DNA of 64,000 nucleotides, taken from positions 620,001-684,000 of the forward strand of contig NC_007503.1 of assembly GCF_000012865.1 (NCBI RefSeq), in the 5' to 3' direction. Of this stretch, positions 1 to 63,050 are shown piece after piece; position 1 is the stretch's first letter; the number at the start of each line of letters is the position of its first letter. Under the pieces are notes generated by a model. It was not told the DNA's origin and ran no database searches. It saw only the letters and a program-made list of their open reading frames with translations. The stretch is from Carboxydothermus hydrogenoformans Z-2901 (GTDB taxonomy: Bacteria; Bacillota; Z-2901; Carboxydothermales; Carboxydothermaceae). Made by a program: the position numbers and the translations under genes.

Positions 1-1803
1 CAAATTAATAACTTGGCTAATAAAGCTTATGCAGATATCTGGTGGAGTTATGATTTGGCGGAGGGTCTTTTAAAAGGTCTACCTTCCAATGAGTATTACC
101 GGGAAATTGAAAACAAAATTATTAAATCCTTGGCAGCCCGGAAAGGTTTTATCGAGGTTATCGATGACCAGGGCAATGTTATTTACAGTCAGGGGCTAAA
201 GCTTGCTCCGGCGTATTTTAAATATTTGGTATATAAGCCTGCAATGATGGGCAGTGTTTCTGGATTTTATGAAATCGCCGACCTTTTGGGAAAAAAGCAT
301 ATAACTTATCTCAGGGCTGAGCAGGTTTTAAATGAAGAAGGGAAACCTCTGGGAGTAATAGTTGTCGGATACAGTTTGGAGGAAAACCAGGTCCTCTTTA
401 CGGAGTTATTTACCCAGGAATTGCAGAAACAAAAATTATTGCCGGGTGTAATCCTGTACTGGAAAAATAAGCCTTTATGGCATTTTGGAGATGTCAGATT
501 TGAACCGCTTCTCGGAGAGCAGATTAAGAAACTGCAAAAGGAGAACATGTTGACGGAAATTCGGATAATTGACGGTAAAAGATTTTACGTTTCCTATCTA
601 CCGCTGGAAAACCGCAATTCGAGTTTACTAACATTGGGAGTATTTTTACCTGCCGATTTGTTGGTCAGGCCTTATAGAATAAGTTTTTGGCAGGGGTTAC
701 TGATTTATATCGTCCTGCTGGGTTTACTGGTGGTACTGGGGATTTATGTAATCATCGGTCGCCAATTGGAAAAGCCCTTAAACGAGTTAATGGAGGTACT
801 TATCGGCTGGATTGAGGGGAAGGATCTAAACTTTACGGAGTATCAAGAAAAATATCCGGAGTATAAAAAGCTTTTTAAGCGAATTTACGACTTAAAAACT
901 ACCAAAGAAAAAATAGCCAATCAATGGTACCGGCTGGCCGAAGGAGTTTATAATTTAGGCGAAGCGGCCAATGACGGAGATTTGGTCAAAGAGCTGGTTT
1001 TTCATATTAAATCACTGGTAGAAGTGAAGGGAATAAAAATACTCCTGAAAAATTTGAAAAGCGACGAATATTTTCCCCTTTATACAGAAGGGCAGGTGGC
1101 AACCGGGCACCCGGCGTTTTGCCCGGATAACGGGGAATATCAAGACGGTACTTACTGTTACCCCATTACCCTGGGAAGCGAGAAACTGGGGTTTATTATT
1201 ATTGCGGCCGATAAGGATAAACTTACCGAGGAAGCACGGGAATTTTTAAACAACTTGATCCTAATGAGCGGACCTCTGGTAAAGCTTTACCTTTTAAAAA
1301 ATTACCTGGCGGAAATTTCGCTGCGAGATCCGCTAACGCAGGCGTTTAACCGGAGATTTTTGGAAGATGCGATTTTGGAAAACAGGGATTGCAATTATTC
1401 CCTTATTTTCATCGACCTTGATAAGTTTAAAGAAATTAACGATACTTACGGCCATAATGCTGGCGATCTGGTTTTAATTAAGCTTACCCAAAAAATTAGG
1501 GAAAATTTAAGAAGCCAGGACCAGGTAATCAGGATGGGTGGGGATGAGATTTTAATTTACCTTCCCAATACCCCTATTGAACTCACCCGGGAAATAGCCA
1601 ACCGCATAATGGAATTAATTAGAAAGGAACAGTTTACGGTTATGAAAGATACCAAAACGGTTACCTTCAATGTTTCGGCCAGTATGGGTATCGGAAGCTG
1701 CCGGGAAGGAGAAAGTTTTGAGGAAGTTTTAGCGCGGGTGGATAAAGCCCTTTACCGGGCCAAAGAACTGGGTAGAAACCAAATTGTGGTGGCCGCTGAT
1801 TAA
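1..1803 (+). CDS. Membrane sensor diguanylate cyclase (GGDEF), 5' partial
   Basis: The reading frame is open from the first base, so the N-terminus lies outside the window. The visible part begins with an extracytoplasmic Cache-like sensor region (about residues 1-225). A hydrophobic membrane segment follows (about 228-252, ISFWQGLLIYIVLLGLL...), then a HAMP-like and GAF-like linker and a C-terminal GGDEF domain. The catalytic loop reads RMGGDEIL, so the canonical GGDEF is GGDEI; upstream DPLTQAFNRRFLE and the FIDLDKFKEIND metal/substrate motif are intact. It should make cyclic di-GMP from two GTP in response to an external signal. No EAL domain is visible. The next gene has its own promoter, so this gene probably ends its transcription unit. 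Confidence 0.88.
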   Translation, partial: QINNLANKAYADIWWSYDLAEGLLKGLPSNEYYREIENKIIKSLAARKGFIEVIDDQGNVIYSQGLKLAPAYFKYLVYKPAMMGSVSGFYEIADLLGKKHITYLRAEQVLNEEGKPLGVIVVGYSLEENQVLFTELFTQELQKQKLLPGVILYWKNKPLWHFGDVRFEPLLGEQIKKLQKENMLTEIRIIDGKRFYVSYLPLENRNSSLLTLGVFLPADLLVRPYRISFWQGLLIYIVLLGLLVVLGIYVIIGRQLEKPLNELMEVLIGWIEGKDLNFTEYQEKYPEYKKLFKRIYDLKTTKEKIANQWYRLAEGVYNLGEAANDGDLVKELVFHIKSLVEVKGIKILLKNLKSDEYFPLYTEGQVATGHPAFCPDNGEYQDGTYCYPITLGSEKLGFIIIAADKDKLTEEAREFLNNLILMSGPLVKLYLLKNYLAEISLRDPLTQAFNRRFLEDAILENRDCNYSLIFIDLDKFKEINDTYGHNAGDLVLIKLTQKIRENLRSQDQVIRMGGDEILIYLPNTPIELTREIANRIMELIRKEQFTVMKDTKTVTFNVSASMGIGSCREGESFEEVLARVDKALYRAKELGRNQIVVAAD

Positions 1804-1836: not shown

Positions 1837-1865
1837 TTGTCATAAAATTAAATATTCATTATAAT
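1837..1865 (+). promoter_or_regulatory. Sigma-A-type promoter of the glutamate synthase leader
   Basis: TTGTCA at 1837-1842 and a perfect TATAAT at 1860-1865 are 17 bases apart. Transcription would start near 1872, just upstream of the hexaloop leader, and give a leader of about 125 nt before the ATG at 1998. Confidence 0.75.
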
Positions 1866-1879
1866 TTTACTACAACTTA

Positions 1880-1921
1880 CCGGCACAACGGCGTGTCGGA
1901 AATGCAGGGCATTGGCGCCTT
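1880..1921 (+). promoter_or_regulatory. ANTAR-type double-hexaloop antiterminator element
   Basis: Two adjacent hairpins each carry a six-base loop with A at position 1 and G at position 4. Hairpin 1 pairs CCGGCAC (1880-1886) with GTGTCGG (1893-1899) around loop AACGGC. Hairpin 2 pairs AGGGC (1906-1910) with GCCTT (1917-1921) around loop ATTGGC. A1/G4 in paired hexaloops is the known recognition rule for ANTAR RNA-binding proteins (EutV, NasR family). The 3' arm of hairpin 2 is also the 5' arm of the terminator that follows, so the two structures exclude each other. An ANTAR protein is encoded at 5412-5984. Confidence 0.8.
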
Positions 1922-1970
1922 CCTATCTCTCTGTAGGTATTCTTGTGCCTATAGAGGGGGGAAGGCTTTT
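1917..1970 (+). terminator. Leader terminator controlled by the ANTAR element
   Basis: GCCTTCC (1917-1923) pairs with GGAAGGC (1960-1966). Inside it, CTCTCTGTAGG pairs with CCTATAGAGGG using two G-U pairs, and a T run follows (1967-1971). This strong intrinsic terminator lies 27 bases before the first gene of the operon, so it must be antiterminated for glutamate synthase to be expressed. Confidence 0.82.
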
Positions 1971-1997
1971 TAATTTATAGATGGGAGGAAATGGAAA

Positions 1998-3089
1998 ATG
2001 GACCGGACTTTTGAACGGATCCCTTCCGGATGTGCCATAAGCGGTATCATGAGTGTTACGGGTAAACGAATTTCGGGAGAAAAAATTATTGCTTCGATTT
2101 CCCTGATGCATGACCGGAGTAACGGTTTAGGAGGAGGTTTTGCCGCTTACGGCATTTATCCGGAATTTGCCGACCATTATGCCTTTCATTTAATGTATCA
2201 GTCGGAGAGGGGTAGAACTTTAACCGAGGAATTTTTAAATAAACATTTTATCATTGAGCGCGGGGAACCAATCCCAACCCGTCCGGTTGCGACCATTACC
2301 GATCCTCCACTTTTGTGGCGGTATTTCCTAAAGGTACCGGAAGAGCGCCTTTACAAAAACCACGAACCGATGGATGAACGGGATTATGTGGTGGAAAAGG
2401 TTATGTACATTAACGACAACATTCCCGATAGTTATGTGGCCTCTTCCGGGAAAAACATGGGTGCTTTTAAAGGAGTCGGCTATCCCGAAGACATTGGGCG
2501 ATTTTTCCGTTTGGAAGAGTATGAAGGTTATTTGTGGACGGCTCATGGTCGTTTCCCGACCAATACCCCAGGCTGGTGGGGTGGAGCCCATCCTTTTACC
2601 CTGTTAGACTGGTCGGTGGTGCATAATGGCGAAATTTCTTCTTATGGCATAAATAAGCGTTATCTTGAGATGTTTGGCTATAAATGCACCTTAATGACCG
2701 ACACCGAAGTGGTTGCTTATGCAGTGGATTTATTGCACCGCCGGCACGATTTACCTTTAGAAATTGTGGCTAAAGTGTTGGCTGCTCCCTTTTGGAAAGA
2801 TATAGAGAAGATGGAGGAAGAAGATCGGAAACTTTATACGGCCCTACGGCAGGTGTACGGTTCTGCCCTTTTAAACGGACCCTTTAGCATCATCGTAGCC
2901 AACAGCAAAGTGATGATGGGCTTAAACGACCGGATTAAGCTTCGACCCATGGTCTGGGGACGACGGGGTGACTTTTATTACATGGCTTCCGAAGAAAGTG
3001 CCATTTATGAAATTGAACCGGCTTTAGACGAAGTTCATGTGTCTAAAGGCGGTGAGCCGGTAATCGTCCGGCTAAAGGAGGGTGAATAA
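1998..3089 (+). CDS. Glutamate synthase, glutamine amidotransferase subunit
   Basis: 363 aa class II glutamine amidotransferase of the split glutamate synthase type. It would hydrolyse glutamine and pass ammonia to the FMN subunit encoded next. The nucleophile is probably Cys12 in SGCAISGIM, implying removal of an 11-residue propeptide. [10 protein letters not shown] and [10 protein letters not shown] are the family's substrate-pocket motifs, and [12 protein letters not shown] follows. The length corresponds to only the N-terminal domain of bacterial GltB. Start chosen at ATG 1998 behind GGGAGGAA. It is the first gene after the ANTAR-controlled attenuator, and the next gene begins one base after its stop. 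Confidence 0.87.
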
Positions 3090-3090
3090 A

Positions 3091-4593
3091 ATGGCGAACT
3101 TAATACCTCCCCGCTTTAAAGTAGTAATTGATTATGAAAGATGCCGGAAATGCAAAAGATGTGTTATAAACTGCGGTTTTGGCGTATATAGTTTTGCTGA
3201 CAGGGTTATTCCCGATCATAAAAAGTGCGTTTCCTGCCAGCGGTGCGTGGCTTTTTGTCCGGAAGAAGCGATAACGATCATTGAAAACCCCAATGTTTTT
3301 CGGCCCAATAGCTACTGGACGATGGAAGACCGGATTAATATTATGAAGCAAGCTTCTTCCAGCGGTATGCTTTTAACCGGTATGGGGAATGACCGGCCTT
3401 ATAAAAATTACTTTGACCATTTGTTAATCGATGCCTGCCAGGTAACGAACCCGTCCATTGACCCTTTAAGGGAACCGATGGAACTTACCACTTACCTTGG
3501 CAAAAAGCCGGATGCGGTAAAGGTTAAGGTGGAAAACGGTAAGGTAAAACTTGATACCCAAATTGCGCCGCAAATAAAGCTCGATACTCCGATTATCTTT
3601 TCTCCCATGTCCTACGGTTCGATTAGTTTGAATGCGCACAAAGCGTTGGCCCGGGCGGCCAAAGAGTGCGGGATTTTAATGAATACCGGTGAAGGTGGTC
3701 TTCATAAAGAGCTGTATCCTTATAAAGACTGGATAATCGTGCAGGTGGCATCCGGCCGTTTTGGGGTAAATCAGGAGTATCTCGACCATTCGGCGGTAGT
3801 TGAAATTAAAATAGGCCAGGGAGCAAAACCGGGTATTGGCGGACACCTTCCCGGGGAAAAGGTAAACCGGGAAGTTTCGGAAACCCGGATGATACCCGAA
3901 GGTACCGATGCCTTAAGCCCCGCTCCCCATCATGATATTTACTCCATTGAAGATTTAGCCCAGCTTATCTATGCCTTAAAAGAAGCTACCCATTACGAAA
4001 AACCGGTTTCGGTGAAAATTGCTGCCGTGCATAACGTGGCGGCTATTGCCAGCGGTATTGCCCGGGCCGGAGCCGACATTATTTATATAGACGGTTTCCG
4101 GGGCGGCACCGGGGCAGCACCAACTGTAATCCGGGATCATATCGGCATTCCGATTGAGCTGGCCATTGCAGCGGTGGATGACCGCCTGAGGGCCGAAGGT
4201 ATTAGAAACAGCGTGTCCATAGTGGCAGCCGGCGGCATCAGGCATTCGGGGGATGTAGCAAAGGCCATTGCTCTCGGAGCCGATGCGGTGGCAATTGGTA
4301 CCGCGGCTTTAATAGCCATGGGTTGCCATGTTTGCCAGATGTGTCACACCGGTAATTGTTCCTGGGGGATTGCCACCCAGCGGCCGGAGTTGACCCAGCG
4401 GCTTGACCCCGACTGGGCTGCTCAGCAGTTAATCAATCTCGTAAAAAGCTGGTCCTTGGAGTTAAAAGAAATTTTAGGAGCTCTTGGATTAAACGCTATT
4501 GAAAGCTTGAGGGGTAGCCGGGAGAGGTTAAGAGGTATAGGGCTTACCGATACTGAACTGGCCATTTTAGGCGTAAAACATGCCGGAAGGTAG
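3091..4593 (+). CDS. Glutamate synthase, ferredoxin/FMN-binding central subunit
   Basis: 500 aa. The N-terminus carries two [4Fe-4S] motifs (CRKCKRCVINC and CVSCQRCVAFCPE, about residues 13-60), followed by the FMN-binding glutamate synthase barrel. GGLHKELYPYKDW, GQGAKPGIGGHLPG and IDGFRGGTGAAPTV are typical of 2-oxoglutarate/FMN sites, and CHVCQMCHTGNC near residue 412 supplies the 3Fe-4S cluster ligands. It would convert 2-oxoglutarate plus ammonia to glutamate using reduced ferredoxin or a related donor. Start chosen at ATG 3091 behind AAAGGAGGGTG rather than an upstream GTG. No GltD flavoprotein is adjacent, so its electron donor is not shown here. Confidence 0.87.
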   Translation: MANLIPPRFKVVIDYERCRKCKRCVINCGFGVYSFADRVIPDHKKCVSCQRCVAFCPEEAITIIENPNVFRPNSYWTMEDRINIMKQASSSGMLLTGMGNDRPYKNYFDHLLIDACQVTNPSIDPLREPMELTTYLGKKPDAVKVKVENGKVKLDTQIAPQIKLDTPIIFSPMSYGSISLNAHKALARAAKECGILMNTGEGGLHKELYPYKDWIIVQVASGRFGVNQEYLDHSAVVEIKIGQGAKPGIGGHLPGEKVNREVSETRMIPEGTDALSPAPHHDIYSIEDLAQLIYALKEATHYEKPVSVKIAAVHNVAAIASGIARAGADIIYIDGFRGGTGAAPTVIRDHIGIPIELAIAAVDDRLRAEGIRNSVSIVAAGGIRHSGDVAKAIALGADAVAIGTAALIAMGCHVCQMCHTGNCSWGIATQRPELTQRLDPDWAAQQLINLVKSWSLELKEILGALGLNAIESLRGSRERLRGIGLTDTELAILGVKHAGR

Positions 4594-4603
4594 GGTGATT
4601 GCT

Positions 4604-5338
4604 ATGGAAATAAACGCAAAAGGCATGTATTACCGGGATTTAAACAATCTTTTGAGGGAAAAAGTGGCCGAGGGAGTAACCGAATTTACTCTTCAGGGGA
4701 TAAACGGCCAGCGGTATCTCGGAACGGGATTAAAAGGTAAAGTTAAAATAGAAGTATATGGTACTCCGGGGAATGACCTGGGGGCGTTTATGGATGGACC
4801 GGAAATTATAGTTTACGGTAACGGTCAGGACGGTATTGCCAATACGATGAACGATGGGCGGATTGTGGTTCACGGCCATGCGGGGGACGTCTTGGGCTAC
4901 GGCATGCGAGGGGGAGAGCTTTACATCCGGGACTCGGTGGGTTACCGGGTGGGTATTCACATGAAGGAATATAAAAAGCAGGTGCCGGTAATCGTTGTAG
5001 GCGGTACCGCCGGGGCCTTTTTTGGCGAATACATGGCCGGAGGAATTCTGGTGGTGCTGGGTTTAAATAAAAAAGAGGGAGAGCCGCTAACCGGGGACTA
5101 TCTTGGGACCGGAATGCATGGAGGGGTTATTTATCTAAGAGGAGAAGTGGAAAAAGATATTTTAGGAAAAGAAGTGGCCGAATTTGAATTAACCGAGGAA
5201 GATTACAAAAGGTTAAATCCCTTACTGGAGAATTATGCAAATTTTTTCAATGTTCCCTTGGACGAAATAAAAAAAGTTCCCTTTAAAAAATTGGTACCGG
5301 TTTCCCATCGGCCTTACGGCAAATTGTATACTTACTAA
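4604..5338 (+). CDS. Glutamate synthase GXGXG-domain subunit
   Basis: 244 aa right-handed beta-helix corresponding to the C-terminal GXGXG domain of GltB. Repeated glycine turns are visible (GHAGDVLGYGMRGGELYIRD, GGTAGAFFGEYMAGG, GDYLGTGMHGGVIYLRG). In GltB this domain supports the channel between the amidotransferase and synthase sites; here it is a separate polypeptide, as in archaeal-type enzymes. Start chosen at ATG 4604, though an ATG at 4580 in the same frame overlaps the upstream gene. A terminator follows at 5339, which closes a three-gene operon. Confidence 0.85.
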   Translation: MEINAKGMYYRDLNNLLREKVAEGVTEFTLQGINGQRYLGTGLKGKVKIEVYGTPGNDLGAFMDGPEIIVYGNGQDGIANTMNDGRIVVHGHAGDVLGYGMRGGELYIRDSVGYRVGIHMKEYKKQVPVIVVGGTAGAFFGEYMAGGILVVLGLNKKEGEPLTGDYLGTGMHGGVIYLRGEVEKDILGKEVAEFELTEEDYKRLNPLLENYANFFNVPLDEIKKVPFKKLVPVSHRPYGKLYTY

Positions 5339-5370
5339 CCGCAATGCATAACTGCTTGCGGTTTTTACTT
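5339..5370 (+). terminator. Intrinsic terminator of the split glutamate synthase operon
   Basis: CCGCAA (5339-5344) pairs with TTGCGG (5356-5361), followed by TTTTTACTTTTTTT. Confidence 0.75.
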
Positions 5371-5411: not shown

Positions 5412-5984
5412 TTGGAAAATTTGAAGGTGGTTTTGGGGATCAGGGATTATACTGAGAGAAAAAGGTTTAAGGAAATATTAAGAACCATGGGAGTTTTAAT
5501 AGTAGGCGAGGGAGAGGAAATCCGAGCTCTGATAAATTTATCCTCCCGGGTTTGTCCCGATTTAGTAATCTTGGACGAAAAGCTGGGGACTACCAAAACC
5601 CTTCCCTATACCAAAATATTTTATGAAAGCCGGCTGTGTCCGGTAATTTTGTATGTGGAGCAACTGGAGTGGGAATACCTTGAAGATTTCAAAAAAGGCC
5701 CTACTTTAAGCCTATTGGTAAAGCCGGTAACGGCGTTAAGCTTAATGGGAGCAATTTATACCGCTTTGACCAACTTTAACACTTATTTAGACCTGGTTGC
5801 CCAGAAAGAAGAGATGGAAAAACGTTTAGAGGAAAGGCGGTTAATTGATCGGGCAAAAGCGCTACTGATTCGCTGGGAAAATTTGACGGAAGATGAGGCT
5901 TACCGTTATCTTCGGGAGGAAAGCCGCAGGCAGAATATTTCCATGGGCAAGGTGGCCAAAAAGATTATTGAAAAGTATACATAA
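5412..5984 (+). CDS. ANTAR-domain response regulator / RNA-binding antiterminator
   Basis: 190 aa. The N-terminal receiver-like domain (about 1-120) has an Asp at position 55 (LVILDEKLG) and a Lys in LLVKPV. A coiled linker leads to a C-terminal ANTAR domain (about 130-188) with the family pattern ERRLIDRAKALL...LTEDEAYRYLREES...SMGKVAKKIIE. ANTAR proteins bind double-hexaloop RNA and block terminators. The matching element lies upstream of the glutamate synthase operon at 1880-1921, so this is the obvious candidate regulator. Start is TTG 5412 behind GAGGGA. No NasS-like sensor or histidine kinase is adjacent, so the input signal is unknown. Confidence 0.87.
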   Translation: MENLKVVLGIRDYTERKRFKEILRTMGVLIVGEGEEIRALINLSSRVCPDLVILDEKLGTTKTLPYTKIFYESRLCPVILYVEQLEWEYLEDFKKGPTLSLLVKPVTALSLMGAIYTALTNFNTYLDLVAQKEEMEKRLEERRLIDRAKALLIRWENLTEDEAYRYLREESRRQNISMGKVAKKIIEKYT

Positions 5985-6001
5985 TTCAATTTGAGAAAAT
6001 A

Positions 6002-6030
6002 TTGTAATTGAGTAAGATATTTTGTAAAAT
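6002..6030 (+). promoter_or_regulatory. Promoter of the glutamine-synthetase-like gene
   Basis: TTGTAA at 6002-6007 and TAAAAT at 6025-6030 with a 17-base spacer. The predicted start near 6037 gives a leader of about 100 nt that contains the attenuator. Confidence 0.6.
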
Positions 6031-6075
6031 AAGTGGCGAGTTTAGGTTAAAAAAGCCATAGTTTGGGGCGATGAA

Positions 6076-6125
6076 GTCCCGCAAGGAAAGGTTTTTACCT
6101 TTCTTTGTGGGGCTTTTGTATTTTT
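6076..6125 (+). terminator. Attenuator hairpin in the leader of the GS-like gene
   Basis: A 17-pair stem joins 6076-6092 (GTCCCGCAAGGAAAGGT) and 6097-6113 (ACCTTTCTTTGTGGGGC) with three G-U pairs and a TTTT loop, followed by TTTTGTATTTTT. It lies upstream of the ATG at 6140, so it acts on this gene rather than ending the previous one. A short competing hairpin, GGGGC (6065-6069) with GTCCC (6076-6080) around loop GATGAA, overlaps its 5' arm. That loop has G at position 4 but not A at position 1. Confidence 0.75.
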
Positions 6126-6139
6126 GGAGGGATAAACTA

Positions 6140-7204
6140 ATGGAACATATGGAGTTTCTCGAACAGTTAAATACTTATAGCATAAAGTTTTTACGGCTGC
6201 AGTTTGTGGATGTTGCCGGAAATTTAAAAAATGTGGCGGTAACTTCGGAAAATGTGGGGGAAGTCTTAAAAAAGGAAATGACCTTTATCCATAATGGGGA
6301 GAAGGTCTTGTTTGAACCGGATTTAGAAAGTCTAACGGTTTTACCCTGGCGGCCGCGGGAAGGGGCGGTGGGAAGAATCTATGGTAATTTGCTCCTCCCG
6401 AATGATGAACAAAAGATAATTTGCCCGCGCAAATTTTTTACCCGGTTTAATTTACCCCTTGAGGTAGCGGTAGAATTTTCCTTTTATCTTCAGGAAAAAG
6501 TTCAGGAGAAAACGCCGGTAGATCATGCCGGGCTTTGGGACGTGTCTCCTCTGGATTTGGGAGAAAATTTACGCCGGGATGTGGTTTTAACTCTGGAGAA
6601 AATGGGAATAGGGGTTAAATATTCGGGACATGGTGCTCATCCCGGGGAACAGGTACTCGGGCTAAAACCGGTTAAGGGGAACAAGCTTCCCGATATTTTA
6701 ACCACCGCCAAGTTTGTGGTCCGAACAATTGCCGAGCGCCACGGGCTTAACGCTTCCTTTTTCCCGTACCATCATAAAAAGCCCGGGCTTTCGGTTAAAT
6801 ACACCTTTTTGGGAGAAAAAGAAGAGACGGAAAAGCTTTATCAAAAAATCGTTACCCTGTTGCCCGAGGCGGAAATAATTTTCCGGCCGTTAATTAACGA
6901 TTATTACGGTTATCCGCAAAAACCGGAAAACTTTATTTTTTATGATGGAGACCATATAGTTTTGACGGTAAGTCCTAAAGCCAACCCCTATTTAGTTTTA
7001 AGTTTACTGGCGATAGAAACTAATGTAAATGCTCAAAATCCAGTTCTGGCCGCGGATTTTGGGCAGGCTTTACGCCGTTTTTCCGAAAGTACCAAATTAC
7101 GGGAATTTTTTGGTGAACTATTCTGGCGGTACTTAAAAATAAAGCAAAAAAGCTATTTCGATTTTTGGTCAAGGGTTCATGAGGAAGGCGATAATGGAGA
7201 TTAA
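6140..7204 (+). CDS. Degenerate glutamine synthetase-like protein
   Basis: 354 aa, shorter than the 443 aa GlnA encoded downstream but collinear with it (LRLQFVDVAGNLKNVA, PWRP, VSPLDLGENLRRDVV, KFVVRTIAERHGLNASFFP, KANPYL). Key GS positions are altered. The metal-binding EAEFF stretch is VEFSFYL, the [10 protein letters not shown] region is SGHGAHPGEQVL, and the arginine-rich NRSP...[14 protein letters not shown] loop is reduced to SPKANPY. Loss of these residues suggests it is not an active synthetase; a sensor or regulatory role is inferred. Start chosen at ATG 6140 behind GGAGGG, because upstream starts fall inside the attenuator. Confidence 0.75.
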   Translation: MEHMEFLEQLNTYSIKFLRLQFVDVAGNLKNVAVTSENVGEVLKKEMTFIHNGEKVLFEPDLESLTVLPWRPREGAVGRIYGNLLLPNDEQKIICPRKFFTRFNLPLEVAVEFSFYLQEKVQEKTPVDHAGLWDVSPLDLGENLRRDVVLTLEKMGIGVKYSGHGAHPGEQVLGLKPVKGNKLPDILTTAKFVVRTIAERHGLNASFFPYHHKKPGLSVKYTFLGEKEETEKLYQKIVTLLPEAEIIFRPLINDYYGYPQKPENFIFYDGDHIVLTVSPKANPYLVLSLLAIETNVNAQNPVLAADFGQALRRFSESTKLREFFGELFWRYLKIKQKSYFDFWSRVHEEGDNGD

Positions 7205-36833: not shown

Positions 36834-36848
36834 AAAAATAACAAAAAA

Positions 36849-36941
36849 CCTCAGGGGTGCCGGATGAGCCCGGCTGAGAAGGCTTCGCGATGAAGAAGTC
36901 TACCCTTTGAACCTGCTCTGGGTAATGCCAGCGGAGGGAGA
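36849..36941 (+). promoter_or_regulatory. TPP riboswitch (THI box)
   Basis: The conserved elements appear in order: CAGGGGTGC, GGCTGAGAA, ACCCTTTGAACCTG, then CTGGGTAATGCCAGCG and GGAGGGA. This is the thiamin pyrophosphate aptamer. When TPP is bound, the downstream terminator should form and shut off the operon. Confidence 0.95.
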
Positions 36942-36965
36942 GGAAATAATGATAAGGTACAACCA

Positions 36966-45189: not shown

Positions 45190-45261
45190 AAATATTTTCA
45201 CAAAGCAGGATTTACGAAAAATTTTACGAATTATCTTAATAAAAATTGAATATTGTAACTT

Positions 45262-45420
45262 TAAGGTGCCTTTACGGCTTAAAAGGGAAGTCCGAGCCCA
45301 AAAGTTTTGGGTAACGGCGCGGTCCCGCCACTGTAAGTAGGGAGTTACCCTAATATATCCACTGGTTTTTACCGGGAAGGATAGGGTAACGATGAACTAC
45401 AGCCAGGAGACCTGCCTTAA
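45262..45420 (+). promoter_or_regulatory. Cobalamin riboswitch
   Basis: An AAGGTGCC start, GGGAAGTCCG, the GGCGCGGTCCCGCCACTG core and the B12 box AGCCAGGAGACCTGCC at about 45401-45416 appear in the expected order and spacing. The aptamer is the adenosylcobalamin class. It heads the longest operon in the window. Confidence 0.95.
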
Positions 45421-45473
45421 AGTTTGGTTCGAAACCTACGCGGATAGGTGGAGAACGGGAGTTTGGTTATAAG

Positions 45474-61513: not shown

Positions 61514-62749
61514 CTATTTCATCACCGTCCCTTTGTAGATTTGGCCTTTGCTCAGCAGGGCAAAGACCAGCCTTACTAATTTGCGGGCAGTTAGAACCAG
61601 CGCTCGCTTATGTTGATGCTTGGTAACTTCGTGATACTTGCTCTGGTAGTAGGCCTTATACTCCTCGTTGTGCACCCGCAACGAGTTGGCGGCCTGGACC
61701 AGGTAGTAACGCAGGTACCGGTTGCCACTTTTTGTCAGGCGGCGTTCTTCGGCGTCAAAATCACCTGATTGGTAGCGGGTCCAGGTAAGGCCGGCATATT
61801 GAGCCAGAGCGGCTTGATCTTTGAAACGTTTGATATCGCCAATTTCGGCTATAATACCAGCAGCCGAGATGGGACCGAGGCCTTTTACGCTGGTCAGAGT
61901 TTGAGGTATGGCTTCTAACTCCCGGCAAATGACTTTATCCAGTTGTTTAAGCTGCCTTTTGAGGTGGTCAATATTCTGCAGAGTAAGAGAAAGAGCTACC
62001 TCACAAGCTGCGAGCATTTTAGGATTAAGGCGGTAGGCGCGACGGGCAGCCTGTTTGAGGGCCTTAGCCATATTCTCAGGTGAGGCTAATTTGTTATTAC
62101 CATGGGACTGGATGAACTCTGCCAGCTCTTCCAATGGCATTTCTATAAGTTCATCTGGTGTAAATTCCTGTAATACCGCCAGGGAGGCCTTACCGAAAGT
62201 TTGACTAAAAGGCTTGTCCTGGTGATAATTAGAAAACTTAAGGAAGAGGAGATTTAAGGCTCGGTTCTGCTCGGCCGTCACCATTTCCACGAGGTGTAGG
62301 CGCAGGCGGGTGAGCTGGCGCAAAGGTTCAGTCACTATAGTTTCCCGGCTACAAGGGGTAAGATGGCCGAAGCGCACCCGTTCTGCGATAACGTAAGCGT
62401 CGAGGGCATCTGTTTTAGGGCGCTTGGTACCGAAGGCCTTCTTAAAACTGGCCACCATGACGGGGTTTATTTCATAGACCTTGGTGGAGTATGGCTTAAG
62501 CTTTGGGGAGTCCAGGAGGAACTGACGGAGATGGACGCTGTAGATAGAGGTGGCCTCCAACCCTATATGAAGTTGCTGGATGTTAAACTTATGGGCGAGA
62601 CCATCCAGCACCTCAACCATAGCAGAAGCGCCTTCGAGGCTGTTAGGAAAAGACTTAACTGGGGCGAGCTGTTGCCCTTGCTCATCGAGACACACCAAGT
62701 CGCATTTAAGAGCGCTGACATCAATGCCTGCAAAAACGACCCGGGCCAA
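61514..62749 (-). mobile_element. IS110-family transposase (DEDD recombinase)
   Basis: 411 aa from TTG 62749, which has an ideal AAGGAGGG site seven bases upstream on the minus strand; an in-frame ATG at 62812 would add 21 residues of odd sequence. The N-terminal RuvC-like part has FAGIDVSALKCDLVCLDE, IGLEATSIYS and KTDALDAYVIAERVR, the D, E, D residues. The C-terminal part has LTSVKGLGPISAAGIIAEIGDIKRFKDQAALAQYAGLTW and TKSGNRYLRYYLVQAA with the conserved Ser. It appears intact. It lies against the direction of the surrounding B12 genes. IS ends could not be fixed because IS110 elements lack terminal inverted repeats. Confidence 0.92.
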
Positions 62750-63050
62750 AGGGTATCCCTCCTTGGGCTGGCCCAAATTAGGGGCGTGCCCTGCGGGTAC
62801 GTCGCGTAACAACCTCGCGGGGCGATGAGAGCGTGGCAGGACAGCCGGGGGTGCACCTCTGGCCTGCTGAATCCAGAAGCCGGCTGGCCTGTTGGCTCAG
62901 CTCACGCGTAAGAAACATGCGCCGCACCGCAAGGGTCTCACTCTTACATGAGTAGTCACCGGGTTTACTCGGGCTACAGGAGGTATTTAAGAGTGACCCC
63001 GGACCAACCTATTTTAATCTTCGCAAAGGCACGCCAAGTTATCAAGAACC
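62750..63050 (-). ncRNA. Structured non-coding leader of the IS110 element, candidate bridge RNA
   Basis: About 300 bases upstream of the transposase start hold no credible ORF but strong pairing. CAGGACAGCCGG (62837-62848) pairs with CCGGCTGGCCTG (62880-62891), one mismatch. Inside, CCTCTGG (62856-62862) pairs with CCAGAAG (62873-62879) around a ten-base loop. GCGTG (62831-62835) and CACGC (62903-62907) close it further. A second hairpin joins CACTCTTA (62940-62947) and TAAGAGTG (62988-62995). IS110-group elements are known to encode a guide (bridge/seek) RNA in the non-coding end beside the transposase start. Exact RNA ends and loops are not determined. Confidence 0.55.

Follow-up and report, generated by a model that had tools for sequence, protein, structure and literature searches.

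A predicted ANTAR-responsive attenuator before the split glutamate synthase operon of Carboxydothermus hydrogenoformans

The glutamate synthase locus and its leader

The window analyzed in this work is a stretch of 64,000 nt (positions 620001-684000) of the single-contig genome of Carboxydothermus hydrogenoformans Z-2901 (2,401,520 bases). It contains the glt operon, which consists of three genes, one for each domain set of glutamate synthase: the glutaminase, the 4Fe-4S and FMN/synthase domains, and the GXGXG domain (Table 1). All elements that the initial annotation had claimed for the leader of this operon, namely a promoter, two hairpins with A1/G4 hexaloops and a strong terminator, were found in its sequence, and the claimed overlap, in which GCCTT (1917-1921) is common to the right arm of P2 and the left arm of the terminator, was confirmed by both the sequence and folding. 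From the position of the promoter, transcription is expected to start near 1869-1873; P1 lies ~15 nt 3' of the promoter and is separated from P2 by a linker of six nt.

The region between glnA and the glt leader encodes a membrane GGDEF protein, a probable diguanylate cyclase (L003 11833-13803, corresponding to window 1-1803). Elsewhere in the window, Rfam reports a cobalamin riboswitch (45247-45433) and a TPP riboswitch (36843-36956).

Table 1. Features of the glt locus and of the related nitrogen loci; positions are those of the window unless a locus handle is given, and loops are set in brackets.
Feature	Position	Strand	Basis
Sigma-70-type promoter: -35 TTGTCA (1837-1842), spacer of 17 nt, -10 TATAAT (1860-1865)	1837-1865	+	sequence; both hexamers unchanged in G001 and G002
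P1 hairpin, 7-bp stem, hexaloop with A1 and G4: CCGGCAC[AACGGC]GTGTCGG	1880-1899	+	sequence, conservation, covariance model, folding
P2 hairpin, 5-bp stem, hexaloop with A1 and G4, proposed antiterminator: AGGGC[ATTGGC]GCCTT	1906-1921	+	sequence, conservation, folding
Intrinsic terminator, stem 1917-1965 with arms GCCTTCC...GGAAGGC, then T-run	1917-1971	+	folding; kept in congeners
Glutamate synthase glutaminase-domain protein (GATase_2)	1998-3089	+	Pfam
Glutamate synthase FMN/synthase-domain protein, N-terminal 4Fe-4S	3082-4593	+	Pfam Glu_synthase 4.6e-145
Glutamate synthase GXGXG-domain protein	4580-5338	+	Pfam
Intrinsic terminator separating the glt operon from the ANTAR_B gene, CCGCAA...TTGCGG TTTTT	5339-5370 (stem 5339-5366)	+	fold -13.7 kcal/mol
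ANTAR_B, degenerate receiver and ANTAR domain, Arg aligned with EutV Met172	5412-5984	+	Pfam ANTAR (PF03861) 6e-18, above cut-off; receiver below cut-off
Candidate variant attenuator before the GS-like gene, GGGGC[GATGAA]GTCCC overlapping a long strong terminator stem	6030-6120	+	sequence, conservation, folding
ANTAR_A, canonical, directly before glnA, ~4 kb upstream of the glt leader	L003 9815-10402 (just outside the window)		
Tandem candidate attenuators before glnK-amtB, each a hexaloop hairpin overlapping a terminator	L109 1350-1485 (genome about 61716-61851)		

The minimum-energy fold of the segment 1872-1925 consists of P1 and P2, and the fold of the complete leader is 7.5 sd better than those of shuffled sequences. 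In stepwise folding the growing transcripts mostly form P1 and P2, and P2 is lost once the right arm of the terminator is complete. On its own, P2 has a computed stability of about -5.6 kcal/mol at 37 C and -0.5 kcal/mol at 70 C; according to this calculation it is too weak to hold against the terminator unaided and would need help.

Conservation and distribution of the element

The promoter, P1, P2 and the terminator are all retained in G001 and G002, the other two genomes of the genus, where the linker is changed, a G-U pair of P1 is replaced by G-C, and the left arm of P2 is altered with its pairing kept. Loop 2 reads ATTGAC in both congeners, with A1/G4 and the terminator overlap retained. 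The conservation of hexaloops and stems in orthologous leaders, on which the initial annotation had made its proposal depend, is thus borne out for the stems and the A1/G4 positions. In an alignment of 22 elements, 91.3% of the paired cells are standard pairs and 9 of the 11 pairs exhibit two-sided changes, and shifting the partner column by one to three lowers the pairing to 34-53%; as the training elements were selected by a rule demanding pairing, the covariation is partly built in and supports the structure rather than proves it. The comparison within the genus and the test of distribution among genomes are free of this bias.

A search of either strand of the 64-kb window with a rule that demands a pair of A..G.. 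hexaloop hairpins with an overlapping terminator returned a single match, the glt leader. Applied to 734 kb (the window and the loci around ANTAR genes, mostly from relatives), the same rule returned 31 matches, a number that includes overlapping readings of one place and the glt locus counted twice, and most of the matches lie directly upstream of glnA, glt or ANTAR genes. Three Markov-randomised controls of 734 kb yielded 1, 0 and 0 matches, and rules with the two fixed loop letters altered yielded 0-3 matches per 734 kb.

The covariance search across relatives, suggested earlier as a check, recovered the element. When the covariance model and an ANTAR domain model were both run on the same 149 genomes of the phylum, the element was present in 36 of the 74 genomes with an ANTAR gene and in 1 of the 75 without (p 9e-13), and with the training genomes excluded the counts are 24/61 vs 1/75 (Fisher p 3e-9). 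The genes downstream are mostly glnA, ANTAR, glt, glnK and amtB. The sole element from a genome in which no ANTAR gene was detected (G150, contig C2, 24694-24739; L149) is found upstream of glnK; this assembly is a draft, so the ANTAR gene may be absent from the assembly only. In the whole genome of C. hydrogenoformans the model identified only two strong sites, the glt leader and the leader of ANTAR_A-glnA. Weak matches at genome position 2169904 (E 1.06), where no nitrogen gene was seen, and at window positions 62714-62771 and 18906, with noise-level scores, were taken as chance. Altogether, conservation, covariation and the joint occurrence with ANTAR genes lend good support to the proposal of an ANTAR-type attenuator at the head of the split glutamate synthase operon; with its A1/G4 loops, retained structure and terminator overlap, the element is a member of the ANTAR dual-hexaloop class, known since 2012 (PMC3369931).

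The overlap of terminator and antiterminator would look identical in a protein-free riboswitch or a leader-peptide attenuator. Such a switch is nonetheless very improbable here: a search of Rfam with the glt leader, at both gathering and permissive thresholds, gave no match, the conserved letters of the element are confined to the two hexaloops and their closing pairs, the distance from the expected start to the terminator is just ~45 nt, and the distribution of the element tracks that of ANTAR genes. We give even less credence to the idea that the structure is a plain terminator of the upstream gene accompanied by chance hairpins; the GGDEF gene does end before the terminator, at 1803, but a conserved promoter is positioned between the two, the controls contain only 0-1 rule matches per 734 kb, and the arrangement is conserved in the congeners.

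Two ANTAR proteins and the wider set of nitrogen leaders

The genome encodes two ANTAR proteins, ANTAR_A and ANTAR_B. The leader of ANTAR_A has a matching element, GGGCAC[AAGGGT]GTGTCC followed by GGC[AATGGT]GCC, the latter overlapping a terminator. ANTAR_A has the EutV-type set of RNA-contacting residues (Arg142, Lys149, Glu160, Met172 and Arg175 in EutV numbering), and its position 164 is Phe instead of Tyr, as in Rv1626. The alignment of ANTAR_B with EutV revealed that it keeps the G4-contacting Arg142, Lys149, Glu160 and Tyr164 as well as Arg168, and that it lacks the full set of EutV contacts, with Arg at Met172 and Arg/Asn/Ser at 173/175/177. In EutV, RNA binding was abolished by M172A and by the triple change at 173/175/177 (PMC8934654). 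Positions 173, 175 and 177 are widely variable among relatives, which makes Met172 the informative one; it is present in 47 of 51 sampled ANTAR sequences and is missing only from the three ANTAR_B orthologues and a single G003 protein. The G003 protein (L066), with Arg172 and an intact receiver, is encoded in a sugar-transport/kinase-like cluster and provided no clue to the nitrogen loops.

The initial annotation had named the adjoining ANTAR_B as the regulator of the glt operon. The adjacency itself stands and is shared by G001 and G002, and ANTAR_B retains the G4-contacting residues and evolves under purifying selection (dN/dS 0.10-0.12). Its role as the reader is however weakened by the terminator that separates its gene from the operon, by Arg at a position where the EutV substitution was detrimental, and by the canonical ANTAR_A nearby. 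A reading of the same switch by ANTAR_B accordingly appears possible but rather doubtful. On the residues compared, the likelier reader of the glt leader would be ANTAR_A, with ANTAR_B as an alternative or accessory protein; besides Arg172 and the terminator, ANTAR_A is favored by its own element and by the precedent of G037, a relative with one canonical ANTAR protein and with elements before both ANTAR-glnA and glt, where one canonical protein plausibly serves both.

The receivers of ANTAR_A and ANTAR_B keep the phospho-acceptor Asp and the Lys, and the first acidic residue and the switch Thr/Ser are absent, so that neither protein has the complete site of a phosphorylated response regulator (acidic pair, phospho-Asp, Thr/Ser, Lys). 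The receivers of many relatives also deviate from the usual phosphorylation-site residues. The incomplete sites make control by kinase phosphorylation doubtful for both proteins, and by analogy with AmiR a protein partner is a reasonable guess. No histidine kinase or AmiC-like partner was recognized among the adjacent genes that we read.

A weak match of the covariance model (E 0.3) pointed to the leader of glnK-amtB. It contains a P1-like hairpin CGATGC[AGTGCT]GCATCG, followed by GC[GATGAA]GC overlapping the first terminator, and by AGGC[AATGAA]GCCT overlapping the second one. All these hairpins are kept in the genus, the last loop being AGTGAA in G002. As the first P2-like stem has two pairs only and the weak match combined the second one with a non-conserved P1, the correspondence to the full dual-hexaloop element is incomplete. 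The third leader of this kind (6030-6120) precedes the GS-like gene, and no P1 hexaloop was recognized in it. This leader is highly conserved and matched no Rfam family; its loop reads G[A/G]TGAA, and the stem of its terminator is very long. Genome-wide, GCRATGAAGYC is found at three places, all of them in the glnK-amtB and GS-like leaders; the count is not above chance, and the informative part is the placement. Clear elements of other loci (L143, L144) use AATGAA as the P2 loop, and loops with G1 occur in L102 and L103. The leaders of glnK-amtB (twice) and of the GS-like gene are candidates for variant elements, and the regulon is probably larger than first proposed.

The GS-like gene (window 6140-7201) encodes a glutamine synthetase-like protein of 354 aa without the customary catalytic motifs: those of the GSGMH and NRSPLIRIP type are missing and ExE is altered. 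The protein is 91-93% conserved in the genus (dN/dS 0.12-0.14), and we speculate from its sequence that it could possibly be a regulatory pseudo-enzyme. Synonymous divergence to G002 is ~0.38 for ANTAR_B and the GS-like gene vs 0.97-1.37 for glt and ANTAR_A (5412-7201 vs 1998-3086); this difference suggests that the ANTAR_B/GS-like block has recombined between lineages. In the genus, [G/A]NTGAA loops precede glnK-amtB and the GS-like operon, the latter directly downstream of ANTAR_B. It is conceivable, if improbable, that ANTAR_B is a paralogue with shifted RNA specificity, its Arg for Met172 being paired with the G1 loops [G/A]NTGAA, which would imply two nitrogen regulons that overlap; the degenerate glutamine synthetase might then act as a sensor.

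Proposed mechanism and relation to known systems

We propose that the glt leader is very probably an ANTAR-responsive transcription attenuator in a small nitrogen-assimilation regulon, with ANTAR_A as its most likely reader; the binding by a protein, the choice of the paralogue, the direction of control (activation) and the signal are what we infer here. Without active ANTAR protein, P2 would lose to the terminator and RNA polymerase would stop at 1966-1971. An ANTAR dimer would bind the hexaloops of P1 and P2, with G4 flipped out, and hold P2 closed; the closed P2 would prevent GCCTT from joining the terminator stem, and transcription would continue into the three genes of glutamate synthase. 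The regulon would comprise ANTAR_A-glnA and glt, which have canonical elements, together with glnK-amtB and the GS-like operon, whose elements are probable variants.

These results add a clear nitrogen-assimilation ANTAR regulon, in a probably thermophilic CO-oxidising Firmicute. They also indicate that gene adjacency can suggest the wrong ANTAR paralogue as the regulator, so that such an assignment needs to be corrected or at least tested. The paralogue with Met172 changed to Arg, found beside canonical and variant loops, constitutes a natural test of RNA choice by the ANTAR domain, and the question of how nitrogen status reaches receiver-like domains without a normal phosphorylation site is testable in this system.

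The ANTAR protein GlnR of Clostridium saccharobutylicum is found with glnA and gltAB, and antitermination of nitrogen genes has been proposed for it. An ANTAR protein adjoining glnA is common to that system and to C. hydrogenoformans, which differs in having two ANTAR paralogues and a synthase divided among three genes. Our literature search for ANTAR in combination with Carboxydothermus and with clostridial GlnR retrieved nothing relevant. Antitermination by ANTAR proteins at dual hexaloops is established for EutV and the eut leaders of Enterococcus faecalis (Ramesh 2012, PMC3369931; Walshe 2022, PMC8934654), which share with the glt leader the two A1/G4 hexaloop hairpins, the short linker and the overlap of P2 with an intrinsic terminator; the glt leader differs in that it would control glutamate synthase, and the ANTAR proteins of C. 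hydrogenoformans differ in their degenerate receivers and in having no kinase recognized among the adjacent genes read. ANTAR elements before the glutamate synthase genes of Desulfotomaculum reducens have already been reported (PMC3369931, Figure 9A), and the glt leader described here represents the same class and the same target function in a different genome.
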